This document shows, piece by piece, positions 9,968 through 56,532 of a DNA stretch of 64,000 bases. Origin of the DNA: Jezberella montanilacus (GTDB lineage: Bacteria; Pseudomonadota; Gammaproteobacteria; Burkholderiales; Burkholderiaceae_B); contig NZ_PVTV01000011.1 of the NCBI RefSeq assembly GCF_003003055.1, positions 62,001-126,000 of the forward strand, in the 5' to 3' direction. A program made the position numbers and the translations under genes. Position 1 is the first letter of the stretch. Every line of letters begins with the position of its first letter. Under the pieces are notes generated by a model, which had not been told where the DNA came from, made no database searches, and saw only the letters and a list, made by a program, of their open reading frames with translations.

Positions 9968-10860
9968 TGTGGAATGATGTAAGCGCTACCAAAACCAAGC
10001 GTACGCAATCGCGTTTGCGCTGCTTGGGCGGATTCCTTGGTCGCAAATGGGCCAGCTCTGACGCGATAGTATTGTCTGCCAGAGACTTCTACAGGGCCAT
10101 CAACATAGGCATTGCTGACACCCTGGCTGACTAGTTTGTCACGCTGGATATTCGCCTCGGCTTGCATATCTAAGGATACAGCTTGAACCACAAAATTTGC
10201 TTTGGTTGGACCCCGAGACGTAACGCTTGACTTACTGGTATCCGCAGTGCTCGAAGGTGCTGTTGAAGAGGCGCTCGAACGTCCCTCAAGCAGTGCCAAG
10301 GCTTGACTGCCGTCGTCGGTACGGGTTTTGTCTTGTACATCCTTAGTATTCTTGACGTCTTTTGCCACAGTTTGGGCTGACTTGCTGTCTATGGTTTTTT
10401 TGGCGTCCGCCTTGGCAGCCGCCAACACTGCAGCAGACGAATCAGTTTGACCACTGGATGAAGCCTCCGGCACAGGCGCTGTTGCAGCGGCAGCTGCTTC
10501 AGCACTGGGCAGGGCTTGGGGATTAGTTACTGTGCCGGACGCCGCGCTAGCCGAGGCGTTTGCGGCAGGACTGGCCGCGCTGCCGGATACCATTGAGCTC
10601 GGGTCAGCTAAGTTGGGTTGAAATGGTGAATCTTGTCGGGGGATCTTGACTGTAATCTTATCAGTATCGGTATTCGGCTCGGAATCCAGCAACATGGGTA
10701 GGACTACCACGGCTGCGAGCACCAGCGCGACGGCACCAGCCAGTCTGCGTCGAGCACGCACCCTGAGTTCGGCGGCCTGTGCCTCACTTGAAACAGAGGG
10801 GCGTGGTTTTGCTGCCGGTTTACGGCTCGCTGAACCTTCTTTTCTGGAAAACAATCCCAT
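9964..10860 (-). CDS. dedD: DedD/FtsN-like SPOR-domain protein
   Basis: This is a 298-residue inner-membrane protein with a short cytoplasmic N-terminus, one transmembrane helix near residues 40-58 (LAGAVALVLAAVVVLPMLL), a long low-complexity periplasmic linker rich in Ala, Ser, Thr and Lys, and a C-terminal SPOR domain from about residue 225 to the end (VQAVSLDMQAEANIQ, YRVRAGPFATKESAQA). SPOR domains bind denuded glycan strands at the division septum. Position between folC and cvpA matches dedD. The linker composition is typical and not evidence of transfer. Confidence 0.88.
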   Translation of the reverse strand: MGLFSRKEGSASRKPAAKPRPSVSSEAQAAELRVRARRRLAGAVALVLAAVVVLPMLLDSEPNTDTDKITVKIPRQDSPFQPNLADPSSMVSGSAASPAANASASAASGTVTNPQALPSAEAAAAATAPVPEASSSGQTDSSAAVLAAAKADAKKTIDSKSAQTVAKDVKNTKDVQDKTRTDDGSQALALLEGRSSASSTAPSSTADTSKSSVTSRGPTKANFVVQAVSLDMQAEANIQRDKLVSQGVSNAYVDGPVEVSGRQYYRVRAGPFATKESAQAAQTRLRTLGFGSAYIIPQ

Positions 10861-38567: not shown

Positions 38568-39860
38568 TCAGGCAAGCATATCCGACCAGATATTTCTCGC
38601 CCACGACCAGGCGTAAGTGCCTTCCAGAGCCGTGGGCTCGGGCGATAAGCCCCCTGAACCTGGTACGACCTTAAAGGTTTTATCCTTTGCGTCGTAGGCG
38701 TGCACGCTTGCTACATGCACCACTCTTTTGGCATCAACAAAGCTATAACAAGTATTGGTCAACAAAGGCGCCGGTGCCACTGGCCAGTCATTGAGCTCAG
38801 CAACAATCGCCGCAGCGGCAACCTTGGCATGCTGATTGGCCATATGACCAGACTTTGGCATCAATTGAGCATTTTGTGTCGCGTCGCCAATGACATGAAT
38901 ATTTTTGGCAGCTGTGGACTCAAACGTTAAAAAGTCTACATAGACCCAGCGCTTGCTCGCGTTGGCAAGCCCTGTCTGCGAGGCAATGTCACCGGCACGC
39001 ATGCTCGGCAAAACGTTTAACACATCGGCTTTGACATCATCCTGAATATCGAATTTCAATGTCTTTGTTTTTGAATCAACCGCAACCACATTATGCGAAG
39101 GCATGTACTCAATCATACCGGGGTAGAGCTCAGCCCAAGCTTTCTTGAACAAAGCGCCTTTTGAAACGATATCCTGATTAGCATCGAGCACAACAATTTT
39201 GGATTTGGGTTTGTGCTGTTTGAGATATGACGCCACCTGACAGACACGCTCATAGGGGCCGGGCGGGCAACGATATGGCGCTTCGGGGATACTCAGCGCG
39301 AATACACCACCGTCGCGCATTGCTGCTATCTGCTTATGCAGCCTGTCTGTTTCAGGACCTGCTTTCCAAGCTTGTAGCGTAGCACCCGAGGCGTTGGCTT
39401 GCGTTAAGCCTTGAATGCTATCCCACATCATCGACACACCAGGTGACAACACTAGCTTGTCGTATCGAAGCGTGTTGCCAGACTTAAGTTTGATCGTTTT
39501 TTTGACTGGATCGATTGCAGACGCATAGTCTTTGATCAGTTTGATGCCATGCTGTTTAGTCAGATCGTTATACGATCTGGTCAAATCCCCAAGCGATTGC
39601 GAACCACCAATCACGAGATTCGATAATGGACACGAAACAAATTTATCGTCAGGCTCGATCAACGTCACACGAGCTTGATGGTTTGAGAATAAGCTAAGGT
39701 ATTTGGCAGCTGTCGCGCCACCGTAGCCTCCACCAATCACGACGATCTCTGCACGCGCGATGCCAGTAGCCCGGGCCGTGCGAGTCATCCCCAGCGAAGC
39801 GAAAGAAGTAATTAAGCCAAGCGATGCTGCCGAAGTGCCTAAAAAATCACGTCTTTGCAT
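38568..39860 (-). CDS. fccB: Flavocytochrome c sulfide dehydrogenase flavoprotein subunit
   Basis: FccB (SoxF type) oxidises sulfide in the periplasm and passes electrons to a partner cytochrome c. The 430-residue protein has a Tat signal (QRRDFLG) and a FAD-binding start IVVIGGGYGGATAAKYL near residues 39-55. Cys77 in FVSCPLSNLV and a second Cys near 370 in TNTCYSFV match the redox-active disulfide. GDATQNAQLMPKSGHMANQHAKVAA is the C-terminal FAD motif. It lies 9 bases after the cytochrome gene and ends the ten-gene operon. Confidence 0.92.
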   Translation of the reverse strand: MQRRDFLGTSAASLGLITSFASLGMTRTARATGIARAEIVVIGGGYGGATAAKYLSLFSNHQARVTLIEPDDKFVSCPLSNLVIGGSQSLGDLTRSYNDLTKQHGIKLIKDYASAIDPVKKTIKLKSGNTLRYDKLVLSPGVSMMWDSIQGLTQANASGATLQAWKAGPETDRLHKQIAAMRDGGVFALSIPEAPYRCPPGPYERVCQVASYLKQHKPKSKIVVLDANQDIVSKGALFKKAWAELYPGMIEYMPSHNVVAVDSKTKTLKFDIQDDVKADVLNVLPSMRAGDIASQTGLANASKRWVYVDFLTFESTAAKNIHVIGDATQNAQLMPKSGHMANQHAKVAAAAIVAELNDWPVAPAPLLTNTCYSFVDAKRVVHVASVHAYDAKDKTFKVVPGSGGLSPEPTALEGTYAWSWARNIWSDMLA

Positions 39861-39869
39861 GTGAATCCC

Positions 39870-40241
39870 CTACTTCTTTCCGAGATATTGAGCGATTGCC
39901 TTCAATTGCTCTTCGCTGTAGCCCTTAGCTATCTGAGGCATGATCGTGCCGGCTTGTGTGCCGTTGCGATAGGCAAGCAACTGCGCTAACAAGTCCTCAG
40001 GTTTTTGTTCGCTTAGCGCGGGCATCACTGCTGGACTAGCCGGCTTCCCATCGGTACCGTGGCAATTTGCGCAACTGGCAGCAAGCAGGCTTTGATTGAG
40101 ATGATCGGCAGAGGTTTGCGCAAAGCTCGTTGACAGCAAAATTGTTGTCATGGTCACAAAGCACAATCCAGGCATAGCGACCTTAATAAGCGCAGCGCTG
40201 ACGGACGTCGTTTTAAAAACTGGGGCGTTTGTTCGTATCAC
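39870..40241 (-). CDS. fccA: Monoheme cytochrome c (FccA-like)
   Basis: This 123-residue periplasmic class I cytochrome has one heme motif, CANCH at residues 57-61, and a likely axial Met in GTIMPQIAKGYSEEQ. It is the probable electron acceptor of FccB, whose gene follows. FccA of Allochromatium is diheme; this protein has one heme only, as in some other bacteria. The GTG at 40241 has a GAGGTG Shine-Dalgarno; an ATG at 40175 with AAGG is a second possible start and would give a shorter signal peptide. Confidence 0.85.
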   Translation of the reverse strand: MIRTNAPVFKTTSVSAALIKVAMPGLCFVTMTTILLSTSFAQTSADHLNQSLLAASCANCHGTDGKPASPAVMPALSEQKPEDLLAQLLAYRNGTQAGTIMPQIAKGYSEEQLKAIAQYLGKK

Positions 40242-40275
40242 TGTTCACCTCATTCGAGTTAAGCCGCTCAAACAA

Positions 40276-41061
40276 CTAGGGTCGCACACCCGGTGTTTCG
40301 ATCAAAAGGCCACGAGCTCGCCACATCAAAAACGCCTCAAGCTGTTTGATCTCGGTTGAATCAAAGGGAAAAGGCTCTGCCCTTACCCCAATCATACAGT
40401 TACGCAAACGTCGTTCAAGGGACCCAACTGACTGCCACTCAAGACGATAAATTGGATAACCAGTGGGATGAGCTTGAGGGATAGCGCTTCCCCCTAACTT
40501 CAAACCCGCTCTCTGGTCATGGCACTGAGCACACGACAAGTTCAGTTGTCCCATCCGTTGATTAAAAAGCGCACGACCCGCCTCTACCTGTTTCATTGCA
40601 GCCGGCGCATGATCAACCTGAATGGCTAAGCCCTTGGACTGAGCGGCAACGTAGGTGGTTAGTGCCAGCGAGGTTTTACTTTCGTGAGCAACCGAAGGCA
40701 AATCGAGACGCCTGGTTCGACATTGATTGATTTGTTCTTCCAGTGAGGTCAGACGCCCCTGTCGCAATTTGGGAAACGAAGCCGCAACACCTCTCATCGT
40801 CTTGCTTGCATCGCCATGGCAGGCGGCACAGGATTTTTGTTGAGAACCGTGTTGCTCTGACCAGAGCGCTTGACCATCAAGTAACCAGAATGCTGCAGGA
40901 TTAGAGTCTGGATTATCCTGCATCGCTTTGTTTTCAGCACTCATCAATTCGTAGGACGATTGACGAGGATCTTTTGCTTGTTGCGCACAAGCTGCTCTGG
41001 GTATCAAGAGTGCGAGCCCAAGCAAACACAGATACCACTGCGAGCGGATCGCCAGAGACAT
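40276..41061 (-). CDS. soxA: Diheme SoxA, sulfur-oxidising cytochrome
   Basis: SoxA with SoxX couples thiosulfate to the SoxY cysteine arm in the periplasm. The 261-residue protein has a Sec signal peptide (cleavage near ACA-QQ), heme motifs CAACH at 78-82 and CAQCH at 177-181, and Cys222 in RNCMIGVRAEPFPF. That cysteine corresponds to the active-site heme ligand of classical SoxA. The catalytic residues thus look complete, in contrast to its partner SoxY. It overlaps the end of soxZ (TAATG). Confidence 0.93.
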   Translation of the reverse strand: MSLAIRSQWYLCLLGLALLIPRAACAQQAKDPRQSSYELMSAENKAMQDNPDSNPAAFWLLDGQALWSEQHGSQQKSCAACHGDASKTMRGVAASFPKLRQGRLTSLEEQINQCRTRRLDLPSVAHESKTSLALTTYVAAQSKGLAIQVDHAPAAMKQVEAGRALFNQRMGQLNLSCAQCHDQRAGLKLGGSAIPQAHPTGYPIYRLEWQSVGSLERRLRNCMIGVRAEPFPFDSTEIKQLEAFLMWRARGLLIETPGVRP

Positions 41062-41390
41062 TAGGTCACCGTCAGTTGACTGGTTGTTTTAGCCAAATAA
41101 TCGTTATCACCTGCCCATGTAAACTCAAGCGTGCCGCTCTCAGTTGCAATGGTCGAGAACACGATCATGGGATTCGCACCCGTGCCAGGATGCAAATCAG
41201 CTCGAAAAATCTCAGTGCCGTTGTACGTGCATAAAAAGCTTCTGAGGATGTCGCGAGGGATGATGCCACCTTGTTCGTCACGACGAAAGCCACTTTCCAT
41301 GTCATGTTGCACAATCACTTTGATATCAATAATGTCACCTTTTTTTGCCTGATTGGGCATGGTGACCAGTGATCGGGATGTCCTGCTCAT
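41061..41390 (-). CDS. soxZ: SoxZ carrier subunit
   Basis: SoxZ is the immunoglobulin-like partner of SoxY. I start at the ATG at 41390, which overlaps the soxY stop (TGATG) and has GGAGG 4 bases upstream; a GTG at 41405 is less likely. The 109-residue protein has the family pattern HDMESGFRRDEQGGIIPRDILRSFLCTYNG, ADLHPGTGANPMIVF and SGTLEFTWAGDND. It lacks a signal peptide, as is normal, and should travel to the periplasm in complex with Tat-exported SoxY. Confidence 0.92.
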   Translation of the reverse strand: MSRTSRSLVTMPNQAKKGDIIDIKVIVQHDMESGFRRDEQGGIIPRDILRSFLCTYNGTEIFRADLHPGTGANPMIVFSTIATESGTLEFTWAGDNDYLAKTTSQLTVT

Positions 41391-41830
41391 CAGACCTCCG
41401 TACACGCTGAAAGCGTGACCAGCGTGTTAGCAGAACCTTGATGAAACGAGCCGTCACTCATTTCTGCGATCGCTAATACTCGTTGGGAATTCGACAAACG
41501 GACACGGCTCTGAACCATGGCACGGCCTGATCGTGCGCTTAAATAAAAACTAATAATATTTGGCAAAGGATTGCCCTCAGCGATGATGTGAATCGCTTTA
41601 ACGTAATCATTAGCAGTCATGGGGCTATCGACTACAACCGTCATCGGGACGAGATTGCCATTTTCAACTAAAGGCGGGATATCGAGTTTGACTCGGCTAG
41701 TTTTAACAAAAGCCTTTCCAACGATATTTTCTAGCGCCTTTTGAGCCTCTTCTTCAGACGCGTTCGCTTTGGCGAAGGTTAATAACCCCACCGACAAAGA
41801 GAGACCGATAAAACGACGACGAATATTCAT
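41390..41830 (-). CDS. soxY: SoxY-like sulfur carrier with divergent C-terminal arm
   Basis: SoxY normally carries sulfur intermediates on a cysteine at the end of a GGCGG tail. This 146-residue protein has a Tat-like signal (IRRRFIGLSLSVGLL), the SoxY core (VENGNLVPMTVVVDSPMTANDYVKAIHIIAEGNPLPNIISFYL) and ends LVTLSACTEV. The cysteine is retained at residue 143 but the flanking glycines are absent. The other reading frames at the 3' end do not restore GGCGG, so a simple frameshift does not explain it. It overlaps soxX and soxZ at both ends. Confidence 0.85.
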   Translation of the reverse strand: MNIRRRFIGLSLSVGLLTFAKANASEEEAQKALENIVGKAFVKTSRVKLDIPPLVENGNLVPMTVVVDSPMTANDYVKAIHIIAEGNPLPNIISFYLSARSGRAMVQSRVRLSNSQRVLAIAEMSDGSFHQGSANTLVTLSACTEV

Positions 41831-42279
41831 GGTTTAAGCGTCAATAAAAAAGCAACGATATCTTCTATATCTTGCGCGACCAAAATAGCCTTGCCCTGAT
41901 ACTGAGGAGAGACCCTGATTAAACCATCAGAGCTAAGATAGCTGGGCATAATCGTTGTAGGGTTAAACCATTGAGGTGCGACCAGATGCGCTCTCAACTG
42001 CCCAGCAGTCAAACGCGAAGCACTCTGGCTTAATTCTGGGGCAAGATTGCCTTGAAAATGCTCTTCTGGGAAAGGCCCGTTGTGGCACAGGATACACAAG
42101 CCACTCTGACGGCCTAATACAAGTAAGCGCCCTTTACTTGCGTCACCAGCTTGGTCAGTCAGCGGTTGCTCGATCGAACCACTGACTGAGTCAAACTGCA
42201 CTGAGTCAGCTAGCAAAGGTGTTGCCCATCCCAGCAGCGAACTGACTGCCAAGATCAAGCAATACCTTTTCACCGTCAT
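41827..42279 (-). CDS. soxX: SoxX monoheme cytochrome
   Basis: SoxX is the electron-accepting partner of SoxA. The 150-residue protein has a Sec signal peptide (PLLA-DS), heme motif CILCH at residues 62-66 and the axial Met111 in TIMPSYLSS, followed by the C-terminal helix DIEDIVAFLLTLKP. Its start overlaps the stop of the upstream molybdenum-enzyme gene (ATGA), a strong sign that the sox genes and the molybdo-enzyme genes are one operon. Confidence 0.92.
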   Translation of the reverse strand: MTVKRYCLILAVSSLLGWATPLLADSVQFDSVSGSIEQPLTDQAGDASKGRLLVLGRQSGLCILCHNGPFPEEHFQGNLAPELSQSASRLTAGQLRAHLVAPQWFNPTTIMPSYLSSDGLIRVSPQYQGKAILVAQDIEDIVAFLLTLKP

Positions 42280-44477
42280 ATCATCGTGATGCCGCTATTT
42301 TTAAGCGGCACGGTACGGATACGCTTGCCAGTCGCCGCGTAGTAAGCATTCAACACCGCCGGGGCTGCCACGCATATGGTCGGTTCACCGACACCGCCCC
42401 ACTCTTTGCCGCCACCCTGAAGAATGATTGCTTCAACTTTTGGCATTTGAGCAATGCGCATTGAGCCATAGGTATCAAAATTCTTCTGCTCAATCGCACC
42501 GTTCTTGACTGTACATTCTTGCAAGAATAAAGCTGATAGACCGTAAACAAAAGAACCTGCGACTTGACGCTCAATCTGTGCTGGATTGACTGCATAGCCA
42601 CAATCCGTCGCAGCAACAATACGATGCACTTTGATCTTCGTACCGTCTACAACCGAAATCTCACAGGCTGCCGCGACCATGCTGCCGTAAGCCGTCATCT
42701 GCGCCACACCTCGAAAGATCCCTTTTGGCGCAGGCTTTGACCATTCAATCCGCTCCGCCACCGCATTCAATGCGGCCAAATTGCGCGGGAAATCGGCCAT
42801 GTGTTTACGTCTGAACTCAACAGGATCCATCCCCGCCGTCTCAGCCATCTCATCCATGAAGCATTCCATGAAAATAGCATTTTGATTGACGTTCACACCG
42901 CGCCAGAACCCAGGAGGGACGTGCGGATTACGCATCGCGTGATCCACCAACAAATTGGGGAAGGTATAACTAAAACCGTGCTCGCCACCATCAAAGACAC
43001 CTTGGAAAGCAATTGGATCACGGCCTTTTTGTTGTTCAACCACAGCTGGACGCAAGGAGGCAAGAATTGACTGGCCAGACAAGCGCATATGCATACCTGT
43101 CATATTATTCTTGTCATCAAAACTGGCTGTAAGTTTGGACATCATGATCGGATGGTAGCGGCCCTGTGTCATGTCCTCTTCACGTGTCCAGATAAGTTTG
43201 ACGTGAATACCGGGCATCTGTTTAGCAATCAAAACAGCTTGGGTCGCGTAATCCTGTGTCGCACCGCGTCGGCCAAAGCCACCGCCCAAATTGACTTTAT
43301 GGACTTCGCATTTTTCTGCAGGCAAACCCGAAGCAGCAATGACTACCGCCATGGTGGATTCGCCGTCCTGGGTAGGCACCCAGGCTTCACAACGCTCAGG
43401 CGTAAAAATTGCCGTGGCGTTTTGTGGCTCCATGGTGGCGTGATTCAAATAAGGATACGAATAAGTAGCTTCGATTTTTTTTGTAGCGCCGGCTAATGCT
43501 GCTTTGATATCACCACGTTGATTGCCGACAAAAGCCTGCTCAGCCGTCAAACCTTCTTGAAGCAGAGCCTTGATTGATTCGCTCGATACGGCGGCATTGG
43601 GACCAAAATCCCATTCAATCTGAACTTCTGCAATGGCTGATTTTGCGTGCCAGAACGTGTCGGCAACGACAGCAACAGCTGTTTCACCAACCTTGATAAC
43701 TTTTTTGACGCCCTTCATGCTCAGGGCTTTCTTGTCGTCGAACGACTTCAGTTTGCCGCCAAAGACTGGGCATTCTTTAATCGTCGCAACCACCATACCG
43801 GGGAATTTTAAATCAGTACCGTAGACCTGTTTACCCGTCACTTTGTCCTGCAATGTATCGAGCCGGTTCAGCGGCTTGCCGATAATGGTCCAATCTTTGG
43901 GGTCTTTCAGAGCAACTTCTTTAGGCACTGGCAACTTTGAGGCAGCAACAGACACTTTACCGAAGGTCGTTTTACGACCCGTAGGCTTGTGAGTGATGAC
44001 ACCTTTTACAGCCACGCATTCAACCGCAGGGACTTTCCATTGCGCGGCGGCAGCCTCAATCAACATCATGCGAGCGGCAGCGCCGCCTTTACGGACATAT
44101 TGCTCAGAGGTGCGAATACCGCGGCTACCGCCTGTGGAGAAATCACCCCAAATACGATTACGATTCAGGCTTTCACCTGGCGTTGGGAATTCAATAGAAA
44201 CTTTGGACCAGTCACACTCAAGCTCTTCAGCCACTAATTGAGCCAATCCCGTTGAAGTACCCTGGCCCATTTCAGAGCGCACGATACGAACAATCACAGA
44301 TTCATCAGGTTTGATAACAACCCAAGCACCGATCTCTGGGCCGGACAGCTTACTAGCTTCTGCTGCAAATGCGCTGGTAGGTAACTCGATTCCAACGGCA
44401 AGGCCCACGCCTGTCAGGGCTGAGCCGACTACAAACTTTCTACGCGACAAATTAGCGATCTTGGTTGGTGCATTCAT
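42276..44477 (-). CDS. Molybdenum hydroxylase large subunit (IorB-like), copy 1
   Basis: This is a xanthine-oxidase-family molybdopterin-cytosine-dinucleotide subunit of the isoquinoline 1-oxidoreductase type, which hydroxylates N-heterocycles or aldehydes. I start at the ATG at 44477, with AGGGG upstream (733 residues). The N-terminus has a Tat signal (LSRRKFVVGSALTGVG). Cofactor motifs include SEMGQGTSTGLAQLVAEELE, GGGFGRRGATQDY and the C-terminal GGVGEPTICVAAPAV with the catalytic Glu. No FAD subunit gene is adjacent. The substrate is unknown. It is a close paralogue of the 44979-47192 gene. Confidence 0.9.
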   Translation of the reverse strand: MNAPTKIANLSRRKFVVGSALTGVGLAVGIELPTSAFAAEASKLSGPEIGAWVVIKPDESVIVRIVRSEMGQGTSTGLAQLVAEELECDWSKVSIEFPTPGESLNRNRIWGDFSTGGSRGIRTSEQYVRKGGAAARMMLIEAAAAQWKVPAVECVAVKGVITHKPTGRKTTFGKVSVAASKLPVPKEVALKDPKDWTIIGKPLNRLDTLQDKVTGKQVYGTDLKFPGMVVATIKECPVFGGKLKSFDDKKALSMKGVKKVIKVGETAVAVVADTFWHAKSAIAEVQIEWDFGPNAAVSSESIKALLQEGLTAEQAFVGNQRGDIKAALAGATKKIEATYSYPYLNHATMEPQNATAIFTPERCEAWVPTQDGESTMAVVIAASGLPAEKCEVHKVNLGGGFGRRGATQDYATQAVLIAKQMPGIHVKLIWTREEDMTQGRYHPIMMSKLTASFDDKNNMTGMHMRLSGQSILASLRPAVVEQQKGRDPIAFQGVFDGGEHGFSYTFPNLLVDHAMRNPHVPPGFWRGVNVNQNAIFMECFMDEMAETAGMDPVEFRRKHMADFPRNLAALNAVAERIEWSKPAPKGIFRGVAQMTAYGSMVAAACEISVVDGTKIKVHRIVAATDCGYAVNPAQIERQVAGSFVYGLSALFLQECTVKNGAIEQKNFDTYGSMRIAQMPKVEAIILQGGGKEWGGVGEPTICVAAPAVLNAYYAATGKRIRTVPLKNSGITMI

Positions 44478-44488
44478 CTTCAGACCCC

Positions 44489-44938
44489 TTAAGCCTTCGC
44501 AGCAGCATGGATTGCTGCGCGAACTTGTTGAAACGTGCCGCAACGACAAATGTTGGTAATCGCTTCGTCAATGTCCGCATCGGTTGGATTGGGTTTTTTA
44601 TTGAGCAAATCAGTCACCGCCATCAATAATCCAGACTGGCAGTAACCGCACTGAGGGACCTGGTGCTCGACCCAGGCAGCTTGCAATTTGGTTAACTTCC
44701 CATTGGCTGCAAGACCTTCAACAGTCGTGACCTTACGCGCACCCACTGCGCTAACTGGATATGAACAAGATCTGATGGCTTCTCCGTCAATCAGCACCGT
44801 ACAGGAGCCGCACTGAGCAATGCCGCAACCGTATTTGGTACCAGTCAGGCCGATCAGCTCACGAATCACCCACAATAGGGGCATATTGCTTTCTGCATCA
44901 ACGCTGTGCTGTTTGCCGTTTACGTTTACTTGGATCAT
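44489..44938 (-). CDS. 2x[2Fe-2S] small subunit (IorA-like), copy 1
   Basis: This 149-residue protein is the iron-sulfur subunit of the adjacent molybdenum hydroxylase. The plant-type cluster ligands are Cys38, Cys43, Cys46 and Cys58 in KYGCGIAQCGSCTVLIDGEAIRSC-like order, and the second cluster uses QCGYCQSG and ICRCGTF. It has no signal peptide and should be exported bound to the Tat-carrying large subunit. It ends 11 bases before that subunit's start. Confidence 0.93.
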   Translation of the reverse strand: MIQVNVNGKQHSVDAESNMPLLWVIRELIGLTGTKYGCGIAQCGSCTVLIDGEAIRSCSYPVSAVGARKVTTVEGLAANGKLTKLQAAWVEHQVPQCGYCQSGLLMAVTDLLNKKPNPTDADIDEAITNICRCGTFQQVRAAIHAAAKA

Positions 44939-44978
44939 GTATAAGTCTCCAGTGACTCAGGGTGAATAATGAAAAAAA

Positions 44979-47192
44979 TTAAATCAGTGTGAGACCATGC
45001 TTGCGCAGTGGTAACTCTCGTTGCGGTTTACCGGTTGCCGCAAAAATCGCATTGACGACTGCTGGCCCCACAACACAAATGGTCGGCTCACCCACGCCGC
45101 CCCAGAAGTCATACGTGGGGACCAGCACGCACTCAACTTTAGGAATGTTTTTGAGACGCGCGACCGGATAGTTTGTGAAATTTTGCTCTTTTACCTGGCC
45201 GTTTTCGATGGTGATATCCTCATTAAAGATGGAAGACAACGCCATCCCAACCGAACCTTCAATCTGAGCCTTGACGATAGAGGGGTTAACAAAATGACCT
45301 GAGTTCAGGGCAAAGAACATTCGATGCACTTTCACCTCACCAGAGGCTGAGACTGAAACCTCTGCGACCGCAGCGGAGTAGCTACCATAGCCCATAAACT
45401 GAGCCACGCCACGATGCACACCAGCTGGCAATGGACTACCCCAGCCAGACTTTTTAGCAACAGCATCGAGAACAGCAAGATGCTTGGGATGCTTGCTCAT
45501 CAACGAACGACGGAACTCAACCGAATCCTTCCCAGCTGCTTTGGCGCACTCCTCGATAAAACACTCCATGTACATACCATTCTGGTTAGTGTTCACACCT
45601 CGCCAGGGGCCAACCGGCACATGCGTGTTGCGCATCACATACTCAGTCAACAAATTCGGGACGGTATAGCCGAGCTGAGCGTCACCAGCTTCTTCGTAAA
45701 AACCTTGTAGCTGTCGGGTATCTTTATTGTTTTTGATTGCTGAGGGAGCCAGGAAAGCATTGATTGACTGCCCTGAAACTCGAACCGACAAGCCGACCAG
45801 ATTACCTTTTTCGTCAAGACCTGCGGACATCTTGGCTTTTGAAATGGGCCGGTAGAAGTCGTGAGTCATGTCTTCTTCGCGACTCCAGACCAGTTTGATC
45901 GGCGTGTCAGGGAAATTCTTGGCAATAGCAACAGCCTGATGCACATAATCCTGAGTTCCACCGCGCCGACCGAACCCGCCACCCAGATCCATAGTCTGAA
46001 CGTCACATTGAGCAAGCGGCACGCCACTGGCCTCTGATAAAGCTGCCAGAGAAATCTCAGCATTTTGTGTCGGCACCCAAGCGAAAGCGCTTTCTTTGCC
46101 AACTTTAACAACGCAATTCATGGGTTCCATCGTGACGTGAGCAACGAAGGTGCTGGCGTAGACCGCTTCAACTTTTTTGGCAGCACCTGCAATCACCGTT
46201 GAGGCATCACCTTCTTTGCGTTGCCAGAAATCACCCTCGGCATTTAGACCTTCAGTCAGTGCGTTAGAGATCGTCGAGCTCGATACTTTAGCGTTGTCAC
46301 CCAAATCCCAGTCAATCGGCAGATTCTCAAGTGCATTCTTTGCTCGCCACCACGTATCAGCCACGACGGCCACAGCGGAATCGTTAACTTTAACTACGCC
46401 TTTAACGCCGCGCATTGATTTGATTTTTGATTCATCAAATGCGACAAGCTTGCCGCCGAAAACAGGACACTGCTTGATCGCAGCGCACAGCATGTTGGGC
46501 AATTTCAAATCAATAGCGAATACTTTTTTACCATTTGTCTTATCAGCCGTATCCAGCTTGTGGACGGCATGGCCGGCGATCTTCCAGTCCTGCGGCTTTT
46601 TCAGGACGATCGACTTGGGATCAGGCGGTGTCAGCTTAGCTGCAGCCTCTGCAACTTTGCCATAAGAAATTTTCTTACCGGTTTTGGCGTGCGTGATGAC
46701 GCCTTTGCTGACCGTTAATTCAGCAACTGAAACCTTGAATTGATCAGCGGCAGCCTGCAAAAGCATCATGCGCGCGGCAGCACCACCCCGTCGCACGTAA
46801 TCTTGGGATTCACGGACCCCGCGACTCCCACCTGTCGACATGGCACCCCAAGCACGCTTGCGCGCGATGTTCTGACCCGCTGTCGGGGACTGAGTACTGA
46901 CTTTTGCCCAATCGCACTCAAGCTCTTCAGCGACCAGCTGAGCTAAGCCAGTCCGAGTGCCCTGACCCATTTCAGAGCGAACAAAGCGGATTATGCAACT
47001 ATCGTCGGGTTTGACTACCACCCAGATATCAACTTCATCTGACGTTTTCAAAGGAATCGCAGCTTGAGCGACAGCCACGCTGGGCAAGCTTAGCCCAAGA
47101 GAGAATCCAGCACCGAGTGCCGTCGAGCCAAGTACAAAGCTGCGACGTGAGGCGTCGAAACCTTTAGCTGTCTGAAGTGTGTTGTTTGTCAT
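44979..47192 (-). CDS. Molybdenum hydroxylase large subunit (IorB-like), copy 2
   Basis: This is the second tandem IorB-type subunit, 737 residues from the ATG at 47192, which has AAGGAGA upstream. It carries a Tat signal (SRRSFVLGSTALGAG) and the same cofactor landmarks: SEMGQGTRTGLAQLVAEELE, GGGFGRRGGTQDY and GGVGEPTICVVGPAV. By eye more than half of the aligned residues are identical with copy 1, but regions near the substrate channel differ (for example WRGVNTNQNGMYMECFIEE against WRGVNVNQNAIFMECFMDE). The two copies probably have related but different substrates. Confidence 0.9.
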   Translation of the reverse strand: MTNNTLQTAKGFDASRRSFVLGSTALGAGFSLGLSLPSVAVAQAAIPLKTSDEVDIWVVVKPDDSCIIRFVRSEMGQGTRTGLAQLVAEELECDWAKVSTQSPTAGQNIARKRAWGAMSTGGSRGVRESQDYVRRGGAAARMMLLQAAADQFKVSVAELTVSKGVITHAKTGKKISYGKVAEAAAKLTPPDPKSIVLKKPQDWKIAGHAVHKLDTADKTNGKKVFAIDLKLPNMLCAAIKQCPVFGGKLVAFDESKIKSMRGVKGVVKVNDSAVAVVADTWWRAKNALENLPIDWDLGDNAKVSSSTISNALTEGLNAEGDFWQRKEGDASTVIAGAAKKVEAVYASTFVAHVTMEPMNCVVKVGKESAFAWVPTQNAEISLAALSEASGVPLAQCDVQTMDLGGGFGRRGGTQDYVHQAVAIAKNFPDTPIKLVWSREEDMTHDFYRPISKAKMSAGLDEKGNLVGLSVRVSGQSINAFLAPSAIKNNKDTRQLQGFYEEAGDAQLGYTVPNLLTEYVMRNTHVPVGPWRGVNTNQNGMYMECFIEECAKAAGKDSVEFRRSLMSKHPKHLAVLDAVAKKSGWGSPLPAGVHRGVAQFMGYGSYSAAVAEVSVSASGEVKVHRMFFALNSGHFVNPSIVKAQIEGSVGMALSSIFNEDITIENGQVKEQNFTNYPVARLKNIPKVECVLVPTYDFWGGVGEPTICVVGPAVVNAIFAATGKPQRELPLRKHGLTLI

Positions 47193-47205
47193 GGCGTTGC
47201 TCTCC

Positions 47206-47703
47206 TTAAACACCTGTCACGCCGGTATCGGCGTAACGCTTCAGGACATCTTCAAGCTTCTGCTGACCTGCAGCGACATGGATACCATCGCGAATTCTCT
47301 GATAAGTTCCACAGCGACAGATGTTCGACATTGCGGCGTCAATATCCGCATCGCTGGGCTTAGGAACTCGCTTGAGTAACGCCACCGCAGCCATAATCTG
47401 TCCTGACTGACAGTAACCACACTGAGGAATATCCAGCGCTAACCAAGCTTTTTGCACGGCATGGCTGGAGTCTTTTGAAATCCCTTCAATTGTGGTGATC
47501 TTTTGACCGGCAGCAACCGAAACGGGGATTGAACAGGATCGTACCAATTCGCCATTAAGTTGCACGGAGCACGCGCCGCACTGCGCGACACCGCAACCAT
47601 ATTTGGTGCCGGTTAGCCCAACCACCTCTCTAATTGCCCAGAGCAAGGGCATATCGGGCTCGACGTCGATCGAGTGTGCAACACCATTTACGTTCAATTC
47701 CAT
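47206..47703 (-). CDS. 2x[2Fe-2S] small subunit (IorA-like), copy 2
   Basis: This 165-residue iron-sulfur subunit is the partner of the following large subunit. Ligands are seen in [23 protein letters not shown] and in [12 protein letters not shown] and ICRCGTY. It is slightly longer than copy 1 at the C-terminus ([17 protein letters not shown]). A GAGGA Shine-Dalgarno precedes the ATG. It is the first gene of the ten-gene minus-strand operon; the promoter should lie in the gap up to 47868, but I cannot identify one with confidence. Confidence 0.93.
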
Positions 47704-47868
47704 TGTATTGTCCTCAAAACATCACTAAGATGGTATGCGGCAAAACGGTCCACGCCAGCGCCTTGAATGTAACTGATGGCAAGGTATGTGTCACCGTCTA
47801 CGCTGACTATAAAACCAGAAGACAAACACAATTTCAAGTCTAAACCTAACTTAATGCCTCCCCTCACC

Positions 47869-48939: not shown

Positions 48940-50199
48940 TTAAAAGACGTTCTTTAAAAACACGCCAATTATGCCTTTGTCGTAGCTGTAGAAATCGATA
49001 TTTGAATTGTTGTGTTGATAGACATAACCGACTTCTGGCCTCAGTCCAAACACATACCAATCCCTTTTTGTCAGCGTTGCAGACAGCGTCGTTAATGAAT
49101 CAGTTCGATTCAAGCCCCAAATCGGATCAGCATCCCAGTAGTTACGTCTTGACAGCGAGGCTTTTAGATTGAGTTGCAACCCAGTCGAGTCTTCAGCGAT
49201 TTGTGTGCCAAGGCCCGCAAACATCCCGTATGAACTGTAGGCATCTGTTTGAGCTGTTGTCCGATCGGCCCCCACTTCAGCGCTAAGCGTCCAGTTTCTA
49301 AAAACGTTGTAGGTATAGCCCAGTTGCATCTGCACCTGTGTGCCATTCAAGTAAAAATAACTGGGGAAATTCAGCACAGCGGCTTTGGCCGATACTGAAA
49401 TAAAATTTTGATCTGGTTGATTAAAAATCATTCTGGACGAGACATATGGCGCGTCGTACAACAGACTGCCGCCATAAAACATGAATTCATTACCCACGCG
49501 CACTTCTTTGTAATTGGCGTCTAGCCAGCGTTTAGCAACGCTAGTGTCGCCAATTTGTCGGTTGAACGCCTGTGTAGAAAAAGTTGAGGTCACCAAACTT
49601 GCCGACGCAAACAGACCATCTGTCCCGGGTATCTCTCTCTCGATCTCTGCGGTCAAGTTGAGGGCCCATTGCGTGTTGGTCGGCAGGCTCGGCTGATAGT
49701 TAAGCGTTTGACCAAAAATATTAAAGGTTCGCTCGGACGTTATCTGACCGGGGTTGCTGTCTTGGTAAATACCGACATAAAATTTAAACGTCTGGCGTTT
49801 CTGGATTTCGCTTAAGTACCACTCAACCCTATCACGCACGACAATGGGTACAGGCTGTGTGAGCACTTGGATAAACTGCTCTTTGGCGTCGGCTAGTCGA
49901 CGAGCTACAAACAGACTTCTGGCAAGTTCAAGCTGCACCCGAACGGCTTTGGTATCGGCGTAAAGCGCCTGAAAAATAAGGATCGCTTGATCGATATCCT
50001 TATCCATCATGAGGATGCCCAATTCAAAGCGCTTCTGAAGCTCTGTCTGTTGGGTCATTGGGCCGGCGGTTTGAACATACACCGAGGTGGGCGCAACGAT
50101 TGGCGGGCTGATCAGGATACTGCTTTGTGAGGAAGCGAACGAGCAATAAAAAATGGCCGCCAACCCAGGCAGCCATGCACTCATACTAGGTCTTCGCAT
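48940..50199 (-). CDS. Surface lipoprotein assembly modulator (Slam, type XI secretion)
   Basis: Slam proteins move specific lipoproteins across the outer membrane. The 419-residue protein has a signal peptide, a helical TPR-like periplasmic domain at about residues 45-140 (ELQKRFELGILMMDKDIDQAILIFQALY, VRVQLELARSLFVARRLADAKEQF) and a C-terminal region rich in alternating aromatic strands that ends in Phe (GIIGVFLKNVF), as expected of a 14-strand barrel. Its start overlaps the stop of the upstream TbpB-like lipoprotein gene (TAATG), which gives it an obvious client. Confidence 0.86.
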   Translation of the reverse strand: MRRPSMSAWLPGLAAIFYCSFASSQSSILISPPIVAPTSVYVQTAGPMTQQTELQKRFELGILMMDKDIDQAILIFQALYADTKAVRVQLELARSLFVARRLADAKEQFIQVLTQPVPIVVRDRVEWYLSEIQKRQTFKFYVGIYQDSNPGQITSERTFNIFGQTLNYQPSLPTNTQWALNLTAEIEREIPGTDGLFASASLVTSTFSTQAFNRQIGDTSVAKRWLDANYKEVRVGNEFMFYGGSLLYDAPYVSSRMIFNQPDQNFISVSAKAAVLNFPSYFYLNGTQVQMQLGYTYNVFRNWTLSAEVGADRTTAQTDAYSSYGMFAGLGTQIAEDSTGLQLNLKASLSRRNYWDADPIWGLNRTDSLTTLSATLTKRDWYVFGLRPEVGYVYQHNNSNIDFYSYDKGIIGVFLKNVF

Positions 50200-51137
50200 T
50201 AACGCTTGCCACCAAAGGCGCCAATCAGCGACGTCACACCAGAGCCCGAGGCAGAGAACGTACCGCCAATTTCTTGCGCATTTGGCCCGTAGAGCTGGCC
50301 TTGAGCCGTACCAGTCATCCCACCTGTCGTGGTGATGTTGCCGTTAAACAGCGTGCCAGAGCCGGAGAACACAAGCAACCCACTGTAGTTCAGCTGCGGT
50401 GCAGACGTGGTTGAAGTAATGTTTTTGGCGATGAGGGAATTCGTCAACGTCGTATTAGACGTTGAAATGACGACGGTTTGAGCACCATAATCGACTGAGG
50501 CAGACATGTTAGCCGTCGCAAACCCAGCCGAGTTGGTACCCGTGATCGCTACTGCGCTCGATAAACCTGTGAAGGTTGCAGTACCTGTTGTCGGCAGGGA
50601 CGTGAGCGGATTACCGTAAGTCGCAGCACCAACCGTGCCAGCGCCCAAACCTTGGCCGGTGACCCAAACGCCGAAAGACTGATAATCCCAACCGTTTGCC
50701 GGGCCATTAGCAAATAAGCCGGAGTTAGTACCAGCCACGTTCGTGGCCTGCACGTAACTACCAACCAGAACTGACGAATTCGTCAAGGAATCGCCTACGC
50801 CCTTATCGAACGCGAGGCTGTACCCGCTAGAGGCCTTTAAGTAGATATTGTAAGTACTGCCAGCGTTATCATACTGGCTCGTATAGGTTGCATTGTTCGA
50901 GGTGGACTGGCTGGCGTTGCCCACAAGCTGATAGTTACCGCTGCTGTCAGTCACATAGGTTCTTTGCGCGCTAAAGCCAGTGGCGATGATCGTGCTGCCC
51001 CCTGTGACCGCGCTCCATTGACTGAACGCCGTTACGCTCGAACTATCGGAGCTTTTAGAGGCGCAACCGGCCACACTCAGTACCGCAATAGTCACAAGCA
51101 ATAATTTCTGGCTTAACGACCTGTCGAACTTTTTCAT
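50199..51137 (-). CDS. Slam-dependent lipoprotein with TbpB-type barrel
   Basis: This 312-residue protein has a lipoprotein signal peptide with lipobox VAGC (Cys near residue 25). Its C-terminal half (from about residue 170) is a Gly/Ser/Thr-rich beta region that closes with GQLYGPNAQEIGGTF and GAFGGKR, the recognisable end of the transferrin-binding-protein B barrel domain. Such lipoproteins bind host iron proteins, heme or complement factors, but the ligand here is unknown. No TonB-dependent receptor or clear Fur box is next to it. It is the first gene of a pair with Slam. Confidence 0.82.
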   Translation of the reverse strand: MKKFDRSLSQKLLLVTIAVLSVAGCASKSSDSSSVTAFSQWSAVTGGSTIIATGFSAQRTYVTDSSGNYQLVGNASQSTSNNATYTSQYDNAGSTYNIYLKASSGYSLAFDKGVGDSLTNSSVLVGSYVQATNVAGTNSGLFANGPANGWDYQSFGVWVTGQGLGAGTVGAATYGNPLTSLPTTGTATFTGLSSAVAITGTNSAGFATANMSASVDYGAQTVVISTSNTTLTNSLIAKNITSTTSAPQLNYSGLLVFSGSGTLFNGNITTTGGMTGTAQGQLYGPNAQEIGGTFSASGSGVTSLIGAFGGKR

Positions 51138-52036: not shown

Positions 52037-53839
52037 ATGCAAGTAGTGAAATCTTACAACCCCTTGCTACTTTCAGTCTTGTTAATTGGCTGTACTCCCT
52101 TGCATGCCCAAGGTGTCCCTAACTCCGCTGTTTCAATATACGATAATTCTTACGAGATATTTCAGCCAGTTGTATCCAGTCACGGCATGGTAGCTACCGA
52201 ACAACGCCTGGCAAGCCAAGTTGGCGCAGACATCTTAAAACAAGGCGGAAACGCCACTGATGCGGCCGTGGCAATTGGATTCACGCTTGCGGTTGTCCTG
52301 CCCAACGCAGGAAACCTTGGCGGTGGCGGGTTTATGCTGGTTCACGACGCAAAAGCTACTCAGACTGAAACAATCGATTTTCGAGAGACGGCACCGTCGG
52401 CGGCGAGCCGTGACATGTATTTGGATGCATCCGGCAAAGTCATCGCCGGCAAATCGACGATTACCCGTTTTGCTGTTGGTGTGCCTGGCACCGTCGCGGG
52501 ATTGACTTACGCGCTTGAGAAACACGGCAGCATGCCCATTGCACGCGTCGTTGCTCCAGCGATCCAGTTGGCGGAGGAAGGCTTCATCGTGAGTCCGGTA
52601 CTCGCTGAACAGTTCAAATTGCAACGCGATCATCTCGGGCGTTGGCCTGGTAGCCGAGGTGTTTTTTTTAAAGCAAAATCAACTCATCAAGCTTGTCAGC
52701 CCGATGCCTGTGATCTAAATCAAGTAGAACCGCTGCAGGCTGGCGACCGCCTTAAACAACCTGACCTCGCCAAAACACTTGGACTTATCGCCGATAAAGG
52801 AGCCGCCGCGTTTTATCAGGGCGATATTGCGCAAAAAATTGTGACTGAAGTGAACCAAGACGGCAACGTGATGAGCTTAGACGATCTCGCTCATTATCAA
52901 ATTCAGAGTCGACAGCCAGTAAGGGGAAGCTATCGTGGTGTCGATGTACTTTCTATGCCAGCTCCAAGTTCTGGCGGTATCCATTTGATCGAAATGCTGA
53001 ATCTGCTGGAATATTTTCAGCTCAGTGAAAGCGGTTTTGGTAGTGCACAAAGCATTCATCTGCTGACCGAAGCCGCTCGCCTCGCCTACGCCGATCGATC
53101 AGAATACCTGGGTGATCCTGCTTTTTACAAAGTGCCACAAATCGGTCTGACATCCAAGGGCTATGCGCAGAGTTTGATTAAAAAAATCAATCCTAACAAA
53201 GCAACGGCAAGCAAAGACACCAAACCCGGCCTACCACTACCTTATGAAAGTGATCAAACCACCCACTTCTCGGTCATGGATAAAAATGGCAACGTAGTCA
53301 GCACGACTTACACCTTGAACTTGAATTTTGGATCCGGAATGGTGGCTCGGGGTACAGGGGTTTTATTGAATAATGAAATGGATGATTTTTCAGTCAAACC
53401 AGGTGTGCCGAATGCATTTGGGCTCGTGGGTGGTCAAGCGAATGCGATAGAAGCAGGCAAACGTCCTTTAAGTTCTATGACTCCTGTGATTGCCTTCAAA
53501 AATGGCAAGCCCTGGATCGCCACGGGATCACCAGGCGGATCGCGAATCATCACAACTGTTCTGCAAAACCTGGTCAATGTGATCGATTACCAGATGAACA
53601 TTGCGGAAGCTGCAGCAATGCCGAGGATGCATCATCAGTGGGTACCCGACGTTTTGCGGCTTGAGCGTGGTTTCAGCCCTGACACAATCAAAATATTGAA
53701 AGGCATGGGCCACGATGTGAAAGTCCAGCCCACCATGGGCCGTATCCAAACTGTTCAATTCGAAAACGGCATGTACTGGGGTTCCTCGGATCCAAGAAAT
53801 CCTGATGGCGCGGCAATCGGCGTGGAGGTGCAGCAATGA
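52037..53839 (+). CDS. ggt: Gamma-glutamyltransferase
   Basis: This Ntn-hydrolase cleaves gamma-glutamyl compounds such as glutathione and matures by autocleavage. The 600-residue precursor has the processing site SDQTTHFSVMDKNGN with the nucleophile Thr at about residue 408, GGGGFMLVHDA near the start of the large subunit, and the C-terminal GSPGGSRIITTVLQNL. The signal peptide ends LLIGCTPLHA, which may be a lipobox (Cys near residue 19) rather than a Sec cleavage site, so the enzyme may be membrane-anchored. It overlaps yicC by 4 bases. Confidence 0.95.
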   Translation: MQVVKSYNPLLLSVLLIGCTPLHAQGVPNSAVSIYDNSYEIFQPVVSSHGMVATEQRLASQVGADILKQGGNATDAAVAIGFTLAVVLPNAGNLGGGGFMLVHDAKATQTETIDFRETAPSAASRDMYLDASGKVIAGKSTITRFAVGVPGTVAGLTYALEKHGSMPIARVVAPAIQLAEEGFIVSPVLAEQFKLQRDHLGRWPGSRGVFFKAKSTHQACQPDACDLNQVEPLQAGDRLKQPDLAKTLGLIADKGAAAFYQGDIAQKIVTEVNQDGNVMSLDDLAHYQIQSRQPVRGSYRGVDVLSMPAPSSGGIHLIEMLNLLEYFQLSESGFGSAQSIHLLTEAARLAYADRSEYLGDPAFYKVPQIGLTSKGYAQSLIKKINPNKATASKDTKPGLPLPYESDQTTHFSVMDKNGNVVSTTYTLNLNFGSGMVARGTGVLLNNEMDDFSVKPGVPNAFGLVGGQANAIEAGKRPLSSMTPVIAFKNGKPWIATGSPGGSRIITTVLQNLVNVIDYQMNIAEAAAMPRMHHQWVPDVLRLERGFSPDTIKILKGMGHDVKVQPTMGRIQTVQFENGMYWGSSDPRNPDGAAIGVEVQQ

Positions 53840-55604: not shown

Positions 55605-56462
55605 TCAAACCTCAACAGGCGCACCGGGTTGAGTGCTCCATTCGCTCCAGGAGCCGCCGTAGAGCGCCGCCCCTGTCAAGCCAGCAAGTTCCATTGCGAT
55701 GAGATTGTTGCAGGCAGTGACACCCGACCCACAACTTGACACCACTTGCTCAGGGGTAAAACCATCTAGCAACTGCTCAAATTCGTTACGCAAACTCGCT
55801 GCATCTTTAAACTTACCATCCTCACGCAGATTTTGTCCGCAAGGGCGATTGCGAGCGCCGGGAATATGCCCAGCAAGTTTGTCGATGGTTTCGTTTTGAC
55901 CGTGAAACCGGTCATTTGCCCGAGCATCAATCACAACGCGATCAGGGTGTCCAAGCCCTGCTTTCATATTGTCAAGATCCACCAGTTTGACACGCTCAGG
56001 TCCCAGAACAAAGTTGCCTTTTGGTCTTGCGTCAGGTGTGTCAGCACTGAGTTCGTAACCGGCGCTCTGCCAGGCTTTGATCCCTCCATCCAACACCACC
56101 ACTCTGGTATGCCCAACCCAGCGTGCCATCCACCAAAGTCGCGCAGCGTAGGTACTCCCGTTGCCGTCGTAGGCCACTAGCAAGGTGTCCTGGTTCAAGC
56201 CCATAGAAGCGAGAAGCTGGGCGAAAGTCTCTCTCCGTGGCAGCGGATGTCGTCCGTTAAGACCCGTTTTCGCAGCGCTCAGCTCGCTTCCAAGGTTGAC
56301 ATACCGTGCTCCGGGTATGTGAGCTGCCTGATATTGCTTAGCACCCAGCTCATGGTCAACAAGGTCGTAGCGACAATCACAAATCAACAGCTTCTTGCCA
56401 GCATCGGGTCTCGCTGCTATCTCTTGTAGCGCTTCGGCGGTCATAATCGGGCGTGCGGTCAT
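55605..56462 (-). CDS. sseA: Two-domain sulfurtransferase (3-mercaptopyruvate type)
   Basis: This rhodanese-fold enzyme has an inactive N-terminal and a catalytic C-terminal domain. The active-site loop CGSGVTA matches 3-mercaptopyruvate sulfurtransferase rather than thiosulfate rhodanese (CRKGVTA). I start at the ATG at 56462 because it has GAGGA upstream (285 residues); an ATG at 56483 has none. The gene sits alone on the minus strand between the SDR and gmk and is divergent from gmk. A link with the sulfur operon is only speculation. Confidence 0.87.
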   Translation of the reverse strand: MTARPIMTAEALQEIAARPDAGKKLLICDCRYDLVDHELGAKQYQAAHIPGARYVNLGSELSAAKTGLNGRHPLPRRETFAQLLASMGLNQDTLLVAYDGNGSTYAARLWWMARWVGHTRVVVLDGGIKAWQSAGYELSADTPDARPKGNFVLGPERVKLVDLDNMKAGLGHPDRVVIDARANDRFHGQNETIDKLAGHIPGARNRPCGQNLREDGKFKDAASLRNEFEQLLDGFTPEQVVSSCGSGVTACNNLIAMELAGLTGAALYGGSWSEWSTQPGAPVEV

Positions 56463-56532
56463 TTCTTCATCCTCATCAGGCATAACGGTCTGCTATGCTT
56501 TTACCTTCACATCGAAGAGTGTATTGTGACTC

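Follow-up and report, generated by a model that had tools for sequence, protein, structure and literature searches.

A conserved operon type pairing IorAB molybdenum hydroxylases with an AACIE-type SoxYZ carrier, exemplified in Jezberella montanilacus

Introduction

Genes for SoxY and SoxXA are often taken as signs of thiosulfate oxidation, and the GGCGG arm of SoxY is the part of the protein on which SoxB acts. Here, we analyse a ten-gene operon of Jezberella montanilacus (order Burkholderiales), located at positions 38568–47703 of a 64,000-nucleotide stretch of contig NZ_PVTV01000011.1 (RefSeq assembly GCF_003003055.1, positions 62,001–126,000; hereafter the window), which joins two IorAB-type molybdenum hydroxylases to soxXYZA and to a flavocytochrome c pair, fccAB. 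Comparison with related genomes indicates that IorAB and its SoxYZ carrier very probably form a dedicated, co-inherited unit.

Arrangements that come close to this one have been described in several papers, as far as their accessible text goes. Divergent SoxYs lie near alcohol, methanol and formate dehydrogenases and dimethyl sulfoxide reductase (PMC11237559), a fused SoxYZ-like protein adjoins dehydrogenases dependent on pyrroloquinoline quinone (PQQ) (PMC12997753), and a similar set has been interpreted as alcohol catabolism (PMC11582611). The soxY2 gene of Bradyrhizobium diazoefficiens is reported not to be essential for thiosulfate oxidation (PMC5748708). In SAR324 bins, a flavocytochrome c is flanked by divergent SoxY and SoxZ with no further Sox genes, and an isoquinoline 1-oxidoreductase is reported separately; the accessible text of that paper draws no link between the two (PMC4782131). 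The open-licence literature yielded neither a description of IorAB paired with an AACIE-type SoxY nor an account of the name ‘AACIE’ itself.

A separate SoxY subfamily beside a molybdenum hydroxylase

The operon SoxY passes the cut-off of TIGR04487 (‘SoxY-related AACIE arm protein’; 182.3 bits, cut-off 172) and fails that of the true-SoxY model TIGR04488 (96.2 bits, cut-off 125). Its C-terminus reads SACTEV where the canonical arm reads GGCGG; in SoxYZ of the operon type, the Gly-Gly flanks of the arm are lost and the arm cysteine is retained. SoxZ scores 74.6 bits, narrowly under the cut-off of 76 of its own model. The model for fused YZ carriers, TIGR04557 (cut-off 140), gives 64 bits for SoxY and 31 bits for SoxZ, which are encoded by separate genes. 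By these models, the operon carrier is assigned to a separate SoxY subfamily and is not a thiosulfate SoxY.

Across the order, TIGR04487 exceeded its cut-off in 25 of 399 genomes. The order set comprised 40 of the best 43 carrier places (our own, one from G114 and one from G169 being omitted), 25 over and 15 under the TIGR04487 cut-off, and a named set comprised the best 80 of 417 confirmed named loci, retrieved by means of a 16-carrier alignment. Some loci belong to both sets (for example L041/L101, L048/L158 and L052/L154), which are counted separately. As a control, a TIGR04488 search (106 of 200 genomes over its cut-off) supplied 20 canonical loci from its 20 best genomes. The SoxB profile used for locus comparison was built from one sequence.

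IorB adjoins the carrier in 36 of the 40 order loci, that is, in 24 of 25 over the TIGR04487 cut-off and 12 of 15 below it, as against none of the 20 canonical SoxY loci (Fisher p 2.5e-12, uncorrected for kinship). The same holds for 74 of the 80 named loci, a set extending to Alphaproteobacteria and Rokuibacteriota. SoxZ is present throughout both sets (40/40 and 80/80), SoxX and SoxA occur together in 25/40 and 77/80, FccB in 2/40 and 18/80, and SoxB within the locus in 0/40 and 0/80. All 40 order loci retain the arm cysteine. The canonical control loci hold SoxB in 19 cases, and their SoxY ends in GGCGG in 19 and in GGCG in one (L227). Since the arm contributes to selection by both carrier models, arm type depends in part on how loci were chosen, whereas the presence of IorB or SoxB does not. 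The IorB-less loci L092, L109, L141 and L157 are truncated; four of the six named misses are cut by the contig end.

The association was also seen from the side of the enzyme. A search of 60 genomes of the order with IorB1 gave 13 genomes with a match of at least 598 bits, the next match scoring 506; TIGR04487 was found at E 3e-34 or better in 12 of these 13 and in none of the other 47. The exception, G045, has no Sox gene in the 20 kb examined (L243), and its IorB falls outside the clade of SoxY-linked IorBs described below. Collectively, these results indicate that IorAB and the AACIE-type SoxYZ very probably constitute a dedicated unit that is inherited together. A first-pass annotation of the window, made from its letters alone, had named co-occurrence in related genomes as a check, and had read the operon as a single unit outside the cytoplasm, distinct from classical thiosulfate oxidation; on both counts it was borne out.

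Plasmid-borne copies of the operon occur in Neorhizobium galegae, Methylobacterium sp. NMS14P and Roseomonas marmotae; that of R. marmotae has the gene order of the window, with a single IorAB pair and the Fcc pair in last position. Two plasmid records annotate the carrier by its TIGR04487 name. Plasmid matches in Methylosinus OB3b and Indioceanicola have GGCGG arms and SoxB and were rejected as members.

Some observations concern individual loci. L059, L067, L077, L107, L120 and L071 are soxXYZA sets of the linked kind that stand without an adjoining IorB. On the N. galegae plasmid (L266, 4713–7200), IorB is split over two unannotated open reading frames (ORFs), reflecting a frameshift or a sequencing error. 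L248 (G055:C19:28300-48200, around 9955–10600) contains an IorB fragment that shares about 75% identity with IorB1 and adjoins a SoxA match; neither SoxY nor SoxZ was found there, and the locus is perhaps the remnant of a deleted operon copy. L145, L153 and L156 come from metagenome bins titled Klebsiella pneumoniae or Bordetella parapertussis and carry operons close to other Burkholderiales copies; the bins look mislabelled.

Organization of the operon

All ten ORFs are on the minus strand and read iorA2-iorB2-iorA1-iorB1-soxX-soxY-soxZ-soxA-fccA-fccB, at the positions and with the families that the first-pass annotation had given them.

47206–47703, minus strand: iorA2, [2Fe-2S] subunit (Fer2 and Fer2_2) of the second molybdo-hydroxylase
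44979–47213, minus strand: iorB2, molybdopterin subunit with a twin-arginine motif; likely start ATG at 47192
44489–44938, minus strand: iorA1, [2Fe-2S] subunit
42276–44549, minus strand: iorB1, molybdopterin subunit with a twin-arginine motif and WGGVGEP containing Glu722; likely start ATG at 44477
41827–42279, minus strand: soxX, monohaem cytochrome c above the TIGR04485 cut-off; ATGA overlap with iorB1
41390–41830, minus strand: soxY paralog (TIGR04487, AACIE arm) with a twin-arginine motif
41393–41410, minus strand: codons of the C-terminal SACTEV arm that replaces GGCGG; Cys143 at 41402–41404
41061–41405, minus strand: soxZ, carrier partner; likely start ATG at 41390
40276–41061, minus strand: soxA, dihaem protein that retains Cys222 and Arg218; alignable with SoxA of Rhodovulum and Paracoccus
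39870–40241, minus strand: fccA-like, monohaem cytochrome c
38568–39860, minus strand: fccB, flavocytochrome c sulfide dehydrogenase flavoprotein with a twin-arginine motif; Cys198 and Cys371 kept

At the listed starts, intergenic gaps are at most 40 bp throughout, although the true starts of iorB1, iorB2 and soxZ probably lie downstream of those listed. The operon is bounded by a divergent gene starting at 47776 (plus strand) and a convergent gene ending at 38531 (plus strand). Start/stop overlaps, read by eye, are ATGA at iorB1/soxX and soxX/soxY, TGATG at soxY/soxZ and TAATG at soxZ/soxA; earlier, only ATGA and TAATG had been reported, which is correct except at soxY/soxZ. Promoter- and terminator-like sites score only 1.0 to 1.3 standard deviations above shuffled sequence and were not used as support.

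The MoCoBD domains of IorB and the separate Fer2/Fer2_2 subunit place the hydroxylases in the xanthine oxidase family, in its IorAB type. SoxX, SoxA and FccA are the cytochromes encoded in the operon, with no further cytochrome subunit. Twin-arginine motifs, judged by eye, are present on both IorBs, SoxY and FccB. Neither IorA nor SoxZ showed an export signal of its own by eye, so that these proteins would leave the cytoplasm together with their partners. The first-pass statement that all components are exported is amended accordingly for the IorAs and SoxZ.

SoxB, SoxC and the wider genome

SoxB gave no match in the whole 3.16 Mb genome, which is rated 100% complete; its absence, first noted for the window, thus extends to the genome. 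The absence of SoxCD, noted likewise, is confined to the window: SoxC is not in the operon, but a true SoxC with an adjoining c-type cytochrome is encoded far from it (TIGR04555, 604 bits versus 420; around G000:C1:254860). The genome also encodes the SorA sulfite dehydrogenase and MsrP, and has one SoxY and one XdhC_C in all. The complete soxB/soxCD set that the first-pass annotation had suggested looking for elsewhere is not present, SoxB being absent and SoxC present.

The same annotation had framed the locus as an incomplete Sox system, a view that we abandon: besides its carrier being assigned to a separate SoxY subfamily, SoxB exceeds its cut-off elsewhere in 22 of the 25 carrier-bearing genomes of the order. 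For this reason, an AACIE-type carrier usually coexists with canonical Sox and is not a leftover of one. Of 31 genomes from the window's genus, 24 have the carrier and 22 have SoxB above the respective cut-off: 16 contain both, eight the carrier only (including the window's genome), six SoxB only and one neither (Fisher p 0.64, likewise uncorrected for kinship). For the 20 genomes at least 90% complete, the corresponding numbers are 11, five, three and one. All four combinations occur, so that within this genus the carrier does not depend on SoxB. No SoxB over cut-off was found in seven of the 23 other carrier-bearing genomes of the genus.

These data bear on an inorganic variant of Sox, in which IorAB replaces SoxCD and oxidises SoxY-bound sulfane, or the unlinked SoxC does so. 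It is favoured by that SoxC and by SoxXA and FccAB, which look intact; the variant would nevertheless have to operate without SoxB to release sulfate and without the GGCGG arm, and IorAB would be superfluous if SoxC did the work. Moreover, enzymes of the xanthine oxidase family act on carbon or CO, and we regard the variant as improbable.

Condition of SoxXA and FccAB

Operon SoxA and SoxX pass the cut-offs of their own models. Cys222, Arg218 and two CxxCH motifs are kept in all 105 linked SoxA sequences that could be aligned, and the first CxxCH is absent from 20/20 canonical SoxA of the order. Cys222, which we take to be both haem ligand and persulfide (conjugation) site, aligns with a cysteine of Rhodovulum SoxA 1h31. 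Judged by these residues, SoxXA looks intact. FccB aligns along its length with 1fcd, and its Cys198 and Cys371 are found in 21/21 sequences; the FCSD domains and both redox cysteines identify it as a flavocytochrome c sulfide dehydrogenase.

The first haem motif, kept in 105/105 linked and missing in 20/20 canonical SoxA, could be taken to mean that the genes are co-regulated neighbours, SoxXA being a mere electron acceptor of IorAB and SoxYZ having no substrate role. A correlation between IorB and SoxA distances points the same way (r 0.79, 44 loci; Mantel, uncorrected for kinship), although shared history also predicts it. We consider this explanation very unlikely, as the constant partner is SoxYZ: SoxZ occurs in 40/40 order loci and the arm cysteine in 40/40, whereas SoxXA is missing in 15/40. 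SoxXA, a candidate electron acceptor in the first-pass annotation, is not an obligatory one, those 15 loci having IorB and SoxYZ without SoxXA in the locus. They contain no other CxxCH protein within ~4 kb (the contigs of L047 and L073 being cut). A second carrier locus is present in each of the genomes of L047, L048, L049, L051 and L053, and the three examined (L078, L077 and L071) have SoxXA; some SoxXA-less loci may use SoxXA encoded elsewhere in the genome.

IorB clade and active site

The IorB phylogeny (78 rows, FastTree) was built after the duplicate L175 (= L243) and ORFs shorter than 600 amino acids had been dropped, and L244, whose IorAB and soxXYZA are divergently oriented, was scored as linked. 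Fifty-eight SoxY-linked rows and one unlinked row (L245) form one set with a support of 100 by this fast method, and 19 unlinked rows fall outside; the genome of L245 also carries a linked IorB copy. The window's IorB2 falls in a subclade in which the remaining SoxY-linked IorBs lie upstream of their own soxXYZA. Since the relatives of IorB2 have Sox sets of their own, the window seems, from this tree, to combine two kinds of IorAB with one Sox set. Single Sox sets with several IorBs are the window (two), L064 (two) and L138 (three).

Trp717 directly precedes GGVGEP in 59/59 IorBs of the linked clade, in contrast to Pro in 13 of 14 unlinked rows, a comparison that omits five divergent unlinked rows of the 19 in addition to L245. 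Glu722 of this motif, presumably the catalytic Glu, is present in 58/58 linked IorBs. In the loop around Arg550, the consensus is WRGVNxNQN for 44 IorBs from longer-arm loci and WRAVAHTxN for ten whose carrier ends in xxCG and whose loci show no SoxXA; four rows (L064 twice, L079 and L249) are intermediate. Residue 724, near Glu722, is Thr in 43 of the 44 longer-arm IorBs and Pro in 10/10 xxCG-arm IorBs. Such covariation of loop and arm is what would be expected if the arm entered the active site, although it counts for little more than one event.

The predicted model of IorB1 has a mean predicted local distance difference test (pLDDT) score of 78.8, low in the first 68 residues, and its nearest solved structure by both sequence and fold is 8gy3, the membrane-bound aldehyde dehydrogenase of Gluconobacter oxydans (template modelling score 0.82). 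This match favours an aldehyde carrier, in which a reactive aldehyde is trapped on the SoxY cysteine as a thiohemiacetal, IorAB converts this oxidatively to a thioester, hydrolysis yields the acid, and SoxXA and FccAB only maintain the cysteine. Ten order loci consisting of IorAB-SoxYZ only also fit, as do the fused SoxYZ-like carriers that, in the accessible parts of PMC12997753 and PMC11237559, accompany PQQ alcohol dehydrogenases and a SoxH-like hydrolase. This explanation is nonetheless unlikely in our estimation: it does not account for the retention of SoxXA with an intact conjugation site in 25/40 and 77/80 loci, and no recurring hydrolase appears among the immediate same-strand neighbours, as judged by eye from sequence starts without a family search.

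A different role for the carrier is suggested by the terminal sulfido ligand that enzymes of the xanthine oxidase family require on molybdenum. A SoxY persulfide made by SoxXA and FccAB could act as a periplasmic sulfur donor that restores this ligand in the exported IorAB, which would explain the pairing of the carrier with this molybdenum family and the sharing of one Sox set by several IorBs. XdhC_C, the usual sulfuration helper family, is however present in 25/25 carrier genomes, and related IorBs of the same genomes (one in the window's own, L246, and L247) stand without adjoining Sox genes, though Sox could act from elsewhere. Weakened by both facts, the donor idea has little probability.

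The carrier arm and the origin of the operon

The predicted SoxY fold best matches 2oxg, the Paracoccus SoxYZ complex, with low confidence mainly in the N-terminal 20 residues and the arm. Arm residues 144–146 have pLDDT values below 50, and the arm is predicted to be flexible. In a SoxY tree computed without the arm (113 columns), the 60 linked carriers form one set with a support of 87, which is not strong; the set adjoins two alphaproteobacterial SoxYs that have GGCGG and SoxB, and lies apart from the canonical SoxYs of the order. Because of this separation, the tree suggests that Burkholderiales acquired the operon from outside rather than by duplicating their own SoxY, which, at 113 columns, is no more than a lead.

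Proposed mechanism

Having recognised the unit from its sequences, we infer its chemistry. Our preferred reading, held tentatively, is a dedicated periplasmic system in which the modified SoxYZ presents a bound substrate, probably an organosulfur compound, to IorAB, with SoxXA loading the carrier and FccAB clearing sulfane sulfur. SoxXA would oxidatively couple a thiol-type sulfur compound onto the SoxY cysteine, and the flexible arm would bring it to the molybdenum site, where IorAB would oxidise the sulfur-adjacent carbon, water supplying the oxygen. The organic moiety would be released as aldehyde or acid, with sulfane sulfur remaining on the arm or leaving, to be removed or recycled by FccAB, and electrons would pass to SoxXA/FccA or to an unlinked cytochrome. 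SoxB would be dispensable in this scheme because no sulfonate would form on the arm. We advance more guardedly the proposition that a molybdenum hydroxylase acts here on a substrate covalently tethered to a dedicated SoxYZ carrier repurposed from thiosulfate oxidation, thiol- or aldehyde-bound on a swinging cysteine arm. If true, it would be a periplasmic analogue of carrier-protein chemistry.

Several findings weigh against the preferred reading. Three of the seven SoxB-less genomes of the genus are less than 90% complete, and one of these, G407, has a SoxB fragment. The loop and arm difference rests on two clades and possibly on one event, and the structure nearest to IorB1 is an aldehyde dehydrogenase. 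L059, L067, L077, L107 and L120 have no IorB despite more than 9 kb upstream, and L071 has none in 2.4 kb. The ten order loci with xxCG arms show no SoxXA (L073 being cut after soxZ); a disulfide loaded by SoxXA therefore cannot be the whole story, and loading may also occur by other means, leaving room for the aldehyde variant. Several IorBs per Sox set would fit a substrate carrier but equally a shared service module. Lastly, the flanking genes vary, and none names a substrate; the organosulfur or heterocyclic compound of the first-pass annotation is a guess.

Recurring gene families around the 40 loci (stretches up to 20 kb, clustered) and a neighbour listing identified no substrate clue. 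Outside genus-level synteny (Polynucleobacter and a few related sets), the neighbour family that recurs most widely is of the solute-receptor type, found at varying positions in 16 of the 40 loci. A hint towards glutathione came from a gamma-glutamyltranspeptidase (GGT) gene at 52037–53839 of the window (plus strand), 4 kb from the operon, and a GGT-family gene near a Polynucleobacter operon; the two are ~31% identical, 29 of 30 matches lie in Polynucleobacter loci or in bins of the order or of betaproteobacteria, and the hint was dropped as coincidental.

Elsewhere in the window, a Slam-like outer-membrane protein (SlipAM) adjoins a TbpB-type barrel-domain protein at 48940–51137 (minus strand), likely a surface-lipoprotein export pair. 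A rhodanese with two matched stretches lies at 55605–56483 (minus strand), 8 kb from the operon.

Comparison with known systems

Taken as a whole, the first-pass interpretation is partly supported. The IorAB-SoxYZ unit is a conserved system that we did not find described in the open-licence literature, and the mechanism given for it here is our inference. A soxXYZA set of the operon type appears to belong to a process other than thiosulfate oxidation; with the carrier in 24 of the 31 genomes of the genus and the whole operon set in many Polynucleobacter loci, gene surveys that count soxY or soxXA without soxB may misread the bacteria that bear it. Were the carrier to present a bound substrate to the molybdenum site, this would be a new way of working for a molybdo-hydroxylase and would suggest a function for the unexplained SoxYZ-like class; taken with the quinoprotein-associated SoxYZ-like proteins, SoxYZ would emerge as a general carrier for periplasmic oxidations. 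On the strength of the accessible text of PMC4782131, the SoxYZ-flavocytochrome c arrangement of SAR324 may be an unrecognised case of the operon-type system, and soxY2 of B. diazoefficiens may be a candidate AACIE-type carrier.

The Sox thiosulfate system, for example of Paracoccus pantotrophus, shares homologous SoxX, SoxA, SoxY and SoxZ with the operon, as well as the SoxA cysteine and the SoxY fold of 2oxg. Operon-type loci differ in having neither SoxB nor the GGCGG arm, and in having a molybdo-hydroxylase as usual partner. The AACIE arm protein of TIGR04487 is matched by the carrier over its cut-off, but that model names a protein only. The FccB of the operon resembles that of FccAB (1fcd) over its full length and in both redox cysteines, although the pair is optional at operon-type loci. 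Within the xanthine oxidase family, IorAB and the 8gy3 aldehyde dehydrogenase give IorB1 its best sequence and fold match and share the separate [2Fe-2S] subunit; operon IorB differs in forming a clade of its own, marked by Trp717 and a distinct active-site loop, and the operon has only SoxX, SoxA and FccA as cytochromes. The quinoprotein-associated carrier (TIGR04557; Pseudomonas putida ped cluster) is similar in placing a SoxYZ-like carrier beside a periplasmic carbon dehydrogenase, according to the accessible text of PMC12997753 and PMC11237559. It combines a fused YZ protein with a PQQ enzyme, whereas the operon type has separate SoxY and SoxZ, mostly SoxXA, and a molybdo-hydroxylase.

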